A stretch of DNA of 64,000 bases from an uncultured Alphaproteobacteria bacterium (lineage in GTDB: Bacteria > Pseudomonadota > Alphaproteobacteria > HIMB59 > GCA-002718135): positions 186,001-250,000 of the forward strand of contig CACMRK010000001.1 in assembly GCA_902616075.1 (NCBI GenBank). Direction: 5' to 3'. The notes beneath the pieces were generated by a model. The model was not told where the DNA came from. It made no database searches and was given only the letters and a program-made list of their open reading frames with translations. The position numbers and the translations under genes were made by a program. Numbering within the stretch: position 1 is the stretch's first letter; the number at the start of each line of letters is the position of its first letter. This document shows positions 3,572 through 56,745 of the stretch, piece by piece.

Positions 3572-3727
3572 TTCTCCAAGCTACCCCTCTGTCTTTTTAC
3601 CTGAGAGCTTTTCACCTTCGGTAGAGCTAAATGCTCTTTTCCAGAGTTTTTTTTTAACGGTCCATTGTGCCTGAGAGTTTCCGGGTCGTTGCTCCTTCGG
3701 CTCTGAAATTTCAGTATCTCCCGTTAA
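3572..3727 (-). promoter_or_regulatory. Tandem glycine riboswitch (two aptamers)
   Basis: Minus strand reads GGGAGA...GCCGAAGGAGCAA...GGAAACTCTCAGGCA then CTCTGGA...CTACCGAAGGTGAAAAGCTCTCAGGTA...GACAGAGG, immediately upstream of gcvT. Confidence 0.95.
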
Positions 3728-3759
3728 TCATTTGTATACTTTTTTTTATAATTTAACAA

Positions 3760-4371: not shown

Positions 4372-4489
4372 AAACAAAAAAAAGGACCCAGCAAGCTAGG
4401 TCCCTTTTGTGTATCGTGCATTTCCTCCCGATACAATTTAATAATCGTTTCCTTTTATTAAATTGATTATTACCTTTGCGTGTAATAAT
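4372..4489 (-). ncRNA. Candidate structured RNA: three hairpins followed by an intrinsic terminator hairpin (sRNA or 5' leader)
   Basis: Adjacent perfect stems on minus strand: ATTATTAC/GTAATAAT (4489-4466), CAATTTAATAA/TTATTAAATTG (4465-4434), TGTATCG/CGATACA (4435-4410), GGACCTAGC/GCTGGGTCC (4403-4384) + 8 U. Confidence 0.6.
4376..4403 (-). terminator. Intrinsic terminator
   Basis: GGACCTAGCTTGCTGGGTCC followed by TTTTTTTT on minus strand. Confidence 0.75.
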
Positions 4490-4610
4490 TAAAAATAATT
4501 TATCTATTAGTTATTTATCAATCAATAAAAAAATGTATTTTTAAAACTAATTAATCTTTTTTTGTTGATATGTTTGTTAATAAAATGTGTAAAATTAAAT
4601 TTGATTAAAA

Positions 4611-5717
4611 ATGAGTAAAAATTCAAAACTTAATGTCTTAGGAGTTATGACAGGCACGTCAATGGATGGTGTTGATATCAGTTTGATTAATACAAATGGG
4701 ACTGACTTTGTAAAAATTAAATGTGAAAAATCATATAAATTTGATAAAAATTATCAAAATACAATAAACAATCTAATATTAAATAAACCAAAAACTAATA
4801 ATAAAATTAAAGAATATTTTTTAAAAAAAGATGATTTCGTTACAGATATTTTAGAAAAAAAAATAATTTTATTTCTGAAACAAAAAAAAATTAATAAAAA
4901 AAATATCGATTTAATATCAATTAGTGGACAGACTGTTTACCACGACCCATCAAATAAAATATCAATTCAGTTAGGAAATGGAAAAAAAATTGCAAAAAAT
5001 CTTAAAGTTAAAACTATAAGTAATTTAAGAGATAATGATATTAAAAATGGTGGTCAAGGAGCACCAATTGGATCATATTATCATAAGTTTTTAATACAAA
5101 AATTTAAGGAAAAAGCGATTATAGTAAATCTTGGAGGTATAGCAAATTTTTCAACTGTAGTTTCAAGAACATTATTATCATCGGATATAGGGCCTGCAAA
5201 TTGCTTAAGTGATGATCTTTGCAATTATTTTTTTAAAAAAAAATTTGATAATGATGGAAATTATGCAAGAAAAGGTAAGATTAATAATAAATTAATCGAA
5301 AAATTCAAAAAAGACAAATTCTTTAAAAAAAAGTTCCCAAAATCATTAGATAGAAATTATTTTAGAAATTATTTTAATAAGCTAATTAAATTGGACAAAT
5401 ATGATGCGCTAATGACTGCTAACTACATGACATATATTGGATTTAAAGAATTATTAAAAAATAAAAAATTTAAGATTGAAAGAATTTTACTTACTGGAGG
5501 AGGAAGAAAAAATAAATTACTGAAAGAAATATTAATGAATAAACTGAATAAAAAAATTGAACTTATTGATAAATATAAAATAAATGGTGATTTAGTAGAA
5601 GCTCAAATGTTTGCATATATTGGCATGAGATCATTTAAAAATTTAGATATAAGTAATATAAATACTACAGGTGTGAAAAAAAATTTAAGTGGTGGTATTT
5701 TATATTTTCCAGATTAA
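4611..5717 (+). CDS. anmK: Anhydro-N-acetylmuramic acid kinase
   Basis: GVMTGTSMDGVD N-terminus, NLGGIAN motif. Confidence 0.93.
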   Translation: MSKNSKLNVLGVMTGTSMDGVDISLINTNGTDFVKIKCEKSYKFDKNYQNTINNLILNKPKTNNKIKEYFLKKDDFVTDILEKKIILFLKQKKINKKNIDLISISGQTVYHDPSNKISIQLGNGKKIAKNLKVKTISNLRDNDIKNGGQGAPIGSYYHKFLIQKFKEKAIIVNLGGIANFSTVVSRTLLSSDIGPANCLSDDLCNYFFKKKFDNDGNYARKGKINNKLIEKFKKDKFFKKKFPKSLDRNYFRNYFNKLIKLDKYDALMTANYMTYIGFKELLKNKKFKIERILLTGGGRKNKLLKEILMNKLNKKIELIDKYKINGDLVEAQMFAYIGMRSFKNLDISNINTTGVKKNLSGGILYFPD

Positions 5718-55613: not shown

Positions 55614-55693
55614 AAAAAATTTGTTATATTCATAAATAACCTAAAAACAATCTTTTATGTTTGTTTTCTAAAATAATATTTATTATAATTAAA

Positions 55694-55760
55694 CTAGGGG
55701 TGCTTAAATGCTGAGATTTATACCCTTTTAACCTGATCTGGATAATGCCAGCGGAGGAAA
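55694..55760 (+). promoter_or_regulatory. TPP riboswitch (THI element)
   Basis: GGGGTGC..TGCTGAGA..ACCC..ACCTGATCTGGATAATGCCAGCGGAGGAAA directly before thiB. Confidence 0.96.
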
Positions 55761-55761
55761 C

Positions 55762-56745
55762 ATGAAAACCATACTAATTTTTTTAACTACCTTATTTATT
55801 TCTTTCTCAATCTATGCAGAGAAACTAACTATATATACTTACGACTCTTTTGTATCAGAATGGGGTCCAGGACCCATCATTGAAAAAATATTTGAAGAAA
55901 AACATAATGCAGATGTAGAATTTGTTTCTGTAGACAGTGCCGCAACATTATTGAATAAAGTTATTTTAGAAGGTGATACTTCTACGGCAGATATAGTTTT
56001 AGGTCTTGATATGAATTTATTTGATTTAGCCGAACAATCTGAGCTTTTTACAACTCATAATATCAATGACATAAATAACTTAATTAATTTACCATTAAAA
56101 TGGGAAAGTAATAAATTTGTTCCATATAATTATGGATACTTTTCTTTTGTGTATAATAAAGCAAATTTAGAAACACCTCCAAAATCTATGGATGAGTTAA
56201 TTAATTCAACTAATGCTAGAATTGTAATTCAAGACCCAAGAACCTCTACCCCTGGTTTAGGATTATTAACTTGGATGAAAGCATTATATGGAGATAAAGC
56301 AGGGGATGAATGGAAAAAATTAAATAAAAAAATTATTTCAGTTACCAAAGGATGGACAGATGCATATTATAATTTTTTTATGGCAGGAGAAGCTGACATG
56401 GTATTAAGTTATACTACATCTCCAGCCGCACATATAATGTTTGAAGAAAGGTATGATATTCTTGCTACAACTTTTGAAGAGGGAAATTATATAACAATTG
56501 AATTTGCAGGCATTTTAAATAATTCACAAAATAAAGATTTAGCAAATAAATTTCTTAACTTTATGTTATCAAAAGAATTTCAATCAGTCATACCATCAAC
56601 AAATATTATGTACCCTGTTACAAATATAAAAGATTTACCTGAGGCATTTGATAAACTAGATGTTCCTAACTTTATTCAAATGGATCCAAAAGAAATTAAT
56701 AAAAATAAAGAAAAATGGATTGATGAATGGCTTAATGCCTCGTAA
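55762..56745 (+). CDS. thiB: Thiamine ABC transporter substrate-binding protein
   Basis: LTIYTYDSFVSEWGPGP, TPP riboswitch upstream. Confidence 0.92.
   Translation: MKTILIFLTTLFISFSIYAEKLTIYTYDSFVSEWGPGPIIEKIFEEKHNADVEFVSVDSAATLLNKVILEGDTSTADIVLGLDMNLFDLAEQSELFTTHNINDINNLINLPLKWESNKFVPYNYGYFSFVYNKANLETPPKSMDELINSTNARIVIQDPRTSTPGLGLLTWMKALYGDKAGDEWKKLNKKIISVTKGWTDAYYNFFMAGEADMVLSYTTSPAAHIMFEERYDILATTFEEGNYITIEFAGILNNSQNKDLANKFLNFMLSKEFQSVIPSTNIMYPVTNIKDLPEAFDKLDVPNFIQMDPKEINKNKEKWIDEWLNAS

Follow-up and report, generated by a model that had tools for sequence, protein, structure and literature searches.

Between anmK and a deaminase gene in the window, by which we mean the whole 64,000-nucleotide stretch of alphaproteobacterial DNA analysed here, the minus strand can fold into four adjacent hairpins. 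An earlier note on this DNA read them as an RNA that might titrate a CsrA-type protein, pair with UCCUCC-type sequences or attenuate the deaminase gene. This raises the question of what the RNA is, in which bacteria it occurs and by which route it might act.

Structure and family of the RNA

The minus strand of this region folds at -43.3 kcal/mol, compared with -22.1 ± 3.3 kcal/mol for 200 shuffles (z = -6.45). A single intrinsic terminator pattern was found where the shuffles gave an expectation of 0.0. The RNA is composed of three hairpins followed by this terminator:

4376–4489, minus strand: gene for the IMES-4 small RNA; the predicted transcript, ~114 nt long, begins at hairpin 1 and ends in the U run of the terminator, as placed by the RF02037 match, the terminator and the promoter spacing
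4466–4489, minus strand: hairpin 1, 8 bp, loop ACGCAAAG
4435–4464, minus strand: hairpin 2, AT-rich stem, cap GGAAAC (a GAAA tetraloop closed by G-C)
4411–4434, minus strand: hairpin 3, 6 bp, loop GGAGGAAAUGCA
4376–4405, minus strand: intrinsic terminator, stem 4405–4382, CUUG tetraloop, U run to 4376

The outer G and C of the hairpin-2 cap pair with each other and leave GAAA as the loop; the two pairs directly beneath this cap are unformed in the window sequence.

An Rfam search matched positions 4410–4489 of the minus strand to IMES-4 (RF02037) with 101.7 bits against a curated cut-off of 48, over the full length of the model (1–80 of 80). The consensus structure line of this family is the same three-hairpin structure with the same loops, terminator excluded, and we identified no essential difference between the two. 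The four-hairpin RNA is a member of the catalogued marine family IMES-4, which was already known. The family was reportedly first described by Weinberg and colleagues in Nature in 2009; our literature search on IMES-4 returned no paper. The Rfam entry assigns it no function, and the model ends short of the terminator, promoter and upstream repeats annotated here. The additions that we make to this entry, namely an explicit host lineage, gene boundaries, a promoter and independence from the neighbouring gene, make IMES-4 testable. Two other candidate relatives, BjrC68 and ncr1015, were rejected because their matches were sub-threshold and lay mainly in the terminator. BjrC68 (RF02353, a Bradyrhizobiaceae sRNA) does resemble the window RNA in that a terminator comes after a short hairpin, but its match is weak (24.6 bits, cut-off 39), with agreement mainly in the terminator and a loop that is not common to both.

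The structure was tested as 37 base pairs in an alignment of 48 distinct copies. Both sides had changed in 26 of these pairs and 94.7% of cells were paired; none of 500 shuffles matched the observed covariation, and sliding the arms lowered pairing to 32–46%. Pairs altered on both sides were present in hairpin 1 (4 of 8, with 98.4% of cells paired), hairpin 2 (12 of 13), the stem of hairpin 3 (4 of 6, with 99.7% of cells paired) and the terminator stem (6 of 10). Whereas the stems are variable, the loops are nearly constant across the 48 copies. The hairpin-2 cap reads G(GAAA)C and in one copy (L046), where the closing pair is A-U, A(GAAA)U; the conserved element is therefore a GNRA tetraloop and not GGA. 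The terminators of duplicated copies, described below, differ in their caps (GCAA versus CUUG), one stable tetraloop having been swapped for another. All 48 sequences retain the hairpin-3 loop, (G)GGAGGAAAUG(C), the only long single-stranded segment that is invariant. A small protein translated from the loop AUG was considered and rejected, as its frame is broken by indels in copies L020 and L042 and by an early stop in L060/L061.

These observations support a structured RNA that is conserved and ends at a terminator of its own. They bear out the earlier note in its placement of a minus-strand RNA with four hairpins (by fold energy, single terminator and covariation) and in the strength of the terminator, which is also conserved in relatives. 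The stems that it called perfect are hairpins indeed, although not perfect beneath the hairpin-2 cap. Compensatory changes occur in all four stems, and the GGA/GGAGGA loops that it described, and expected to be conserved, hold for hairpin 3 but not for hairpin 2, where the GGA dissolves into the GAAA tetraloop and its closing pair. The note itself counted a match to a known Rfam family against its proposal, and RF02037 is such a match.

Distribution, promoter and upstream repeats

The order HIMB59 (AEGEAN-169) comprises the families f_HIMB59 and f_GCA002718135 (PMC10734472; PMC10308909), and the window's host probably belongs to the second of them. IMES-4 was identified in 78 of 110 genomes of the window's family-level group, including 10 of the 10 that are at least 90% complete, and the absences are consistent with genome incompleteness. 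The window genome has one copy, as do nearly all carriers. In the sister family, it was found in none of the 25 genomes searched. A homologue in that family was rejected, since our own model also found none in 16 sister-family genomes (best chance match E = 0.5) and anmK has different neighbours there. Across the class, 2 of 386 genomes matched, both from the window's group. When 84,980 species genomes were scanned for an exact pattern, 76 records were returned, all of them alphaproteobacterial genomes assembled from single cells or metagenomes; their names include the 'AG-' series, MarineAlpha5 bins and one 'Pelagibacterales SAG-MED31'. Partly from general knowledge, we take the surveys behind these names to be marine, in accordance with marine occurrence of the family. 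A phage origin was rejected because viral contigs contained no match to the pattern. Judged by these genomes, one family of ocean bacteria carries IMES-4 as a predicted small RNA gene in its own right.

Upstream of hairpin 1 we annotated two further features:

4497–4524, minus strand: inferred promoter, -35 TTGATT (4524–4519), -10 TAAATT (4502–4497)
4563–4594, minus strand: three direct-repeat boxes, TTTTACACA / TTTTATTAACA / AACATATCAACA, spaced 11–12 bp; putative regulator site

A pattern scan picks an alternative promoter, TTGATA/TATTTT (4521–4492), and the scan alone is not above chance. Among 21 divergent copies, TTG is the best conserved stretch upstream of the RNA, and many of these copies feature TTGA-N17-TAnnTT followed by 7 nt to hairpin 1. 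Based on this promoter-like spacing, we placed the transcript start at hairpin 1. The comparison suggests that IMES-4 has its own conserved promoter-like elements.

Most divergent copies have some version of the repeat boxes upstream of the RNA, and this extends to copies that adjoin an EamA transporter gene instead of anmK. A composite-site matrix, built from 14 sites with the window's own site in the training set, scored 27.6 there; the rest of the 258 kb gave no score over 11.5, and random sequence reaches 14–16. The composite pattern has one exact match in the genome, upstream of IMES-4. A regulon search with this array over 258 kb found no further site that exceeded random scores, and no second exact site was found genome-wide. 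A putative regulator bound to the three repeats would probably govern transcription of IMES-4. The 11–12 bp spacing resembles that of response-regulator sites. The repeats are also DnaA-box-like; a replication origin was rejected, given that the skew does not switch at the site and is negative on either side, and that most repeats depart from TTATNCACA at the sixth base.

The hairpin-3 loop and its candidate partners

Searches for CsrA and for Hfq each detected the protein in none of 41 genomes of the order, and the positive controls were detected in both. For CsrA, 25 of these genomes belong to the RNA-carrying group and are individually incomplete but jointly telling. Since neither protein was detected, action in trans would require another helper or none. 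IMES-4 resembles Hfq-dependent trans-acting small RNAs in its own promoter, short length, structure and U-rich terminator, but differs in that Hfq was not detected in the 41 genomes searched and in that our target search was without result.

We consider it likely that IMES-4 is a stand-alone, promoter-driven and terminator-ended non-coding RNA of ~114 nt that acts in trans via its hairpin-3 loop. The three stems would then serve as scaffolds, with the GAAA and CUUG/GCAA caps expected to provide stability, and the hairpin-3 loop (G)GGAGGAAAUG(C) would form the contact surface for a partner, which would be either a CU-rich RNA or an RNA-binding protein other than CsrA and Hfq. All near-complete genomes of this marine group, which seemingly lacks Hfq and CsrA, carry IMES-4. 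If the RNA acts in trans, it would be a starting point for studying how small RNAs regulate genes in streamlined bacteria that lack the usual helpers.

One specific form of this model, which we regard as a tentative possibility, is that IMES-4 acts as a sponge or scaffold for an RNA-binding protein that reads a G-GAGGAAAUG-C hairpin. The loop is invariant while its stem changes, as would be expected of such a recognition element. In addition, a second intergenic element, found in four genomes of two genera (G105, G106 and G109, also G107), has the identical 11 bases flanked by different stems:

L221 near 1506; L216 near 1491; L214 near 1509 (minus strand): second intergenic element

This element has a GGAGGAAATGC hairpin loop and precedes a short reading frame, MTTT(I/T)IPII; it matches no Rfam family. 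It may be a further carrier of this recognition element, or the agreement may be coincidental. Its stem has only about three pairs in one genus, and the patterns used did not find it in the window's own genus; both points weigh against the sponge. Two of these sequences contain sub-threshold matches to the Rickettsia sRNA Rp_sR47 (L216 415–727, minus strand, and L214 2291–2414, plus strand; 56–59 bits, cut-off 60). These lie where an ATP synthase epsilon gene is predicted and possibly reflect coding-sequence homology.

A role as an antisense RNA that pairs with a CU-rich message through its GGAGGAAAUG loop, or as a decoy for the anti-Shine-Dalgarno end of 16S rRNA, appears unlikely to us. The 3' end of 16S rRNA carries CCUCCU. 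The loop's GGGAGG is complementary to this motif over six bases, one G-U pair included. Shine-Dalgarno-like sequences are rare in the window genome, where GGAG lies ahead of 5 of 177 genes, versus 2 in a control stretch, so that a loop of this kind would stand out. Pairing of the hairpin-3 GGAGGA loop with a UCCUCC-type sequence, as the earlier note proposed, is possible. In 16 genomes of the group, the complement of GGAGGAAAUGC occurred 31 times outside the RNA, compared with once for the reversed pattern. However, most of these complements are antisense to Gly-Gly-Asn-Ala codons, for example in FtsZ, and do not lie near gene starts, which argues against the antisense and decoy readings. The intergenic exceptions are copies of the second element. 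Because the excess arises from the Gly-Gly-Asn-Ala codons, perfect-complement matches were rejected as targets, and the search by perfect loop complement in these 16 genomes identified no convincing one.

The sponge may also be put in its most ambitious form, where IMES-4 would be a core small RNA that sequesters a protein recognising the G-GAGGAAAUG-C hairpin, in a CsrB-like role without CsrA or Hfq and with the second carrier as a regulated message. We regard this combination as quite improbable.

Neighbouring genes and CsrA

Every copy examined shares its neighbourhood, with anmK or EamA on one side and the deaminase/gcvT block on the other. Read on the RNA strand, the order is divergent anmK (or the EamA transporter gene upstream), the RNA, the deaminase gene, a glycine riboswitch, gcvT and gcvH. 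The deaminase is of the dCMP/cytidine type (Pfam PF00383). In the window, 44 nt separate the terminator from the deaminase start, both on one strand, and most copies share this order and strand, as an attenuating or ligand-binding leader of this gene would require. This linkage is not constant. In L065 and L066 the deaminase gene has been lost and IMES-4 retained as two tandem copies (5256–5587 and 4881–5217, respectively), each with its own upstream elements and terminator. In L056, L058 and L062, an opposite-strand gene is situated between IMES-4 and the deaminase gene; it encodes a solute-binding protein (PBP_like_2 in L062). These two rearrangements indicate that the RNA is not a deaminase leader. 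Furthermore, the four stems do not overlap and an alternative antiterminator pairing is not evident. The attenuating leader put forward in the earlier note is contradicted by these arrangements, and we judge it very unlikely. By this comparison, IMES-4 is independent of the deaminase gene, and the constant neighbourhood would leave room for a local role.

Titration of CsrA, also offered in the earlier note, is scarcely credible, as CsrA was found in 0 of the 41 genomes by a search that was positive where expected; moreover, the hairpin-1 and terminator loops are without GGA, and the GGA at the hairpin-2 cap belongs to the closed GAAA tetraloop, which leaves the GGAGGA of hairpin 3 as the one exposed GGA among four hairpins. 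Like CsrB/RsmZ-type RNAs, the window RNA is small, ends in an intrinsic terminator and has GGA in a hairpin loop; it differs from them in its single open GGA loop and in a host group in which no gene for CsrA/RsmA was found.

The glycine riboswitch that separates the deaminase gene from gcvT is located at 3648–3733 on the minus strand of the window and is present in relatives too. The window also contains a TPP riboswitch at 55686–55776 on the plus strand.
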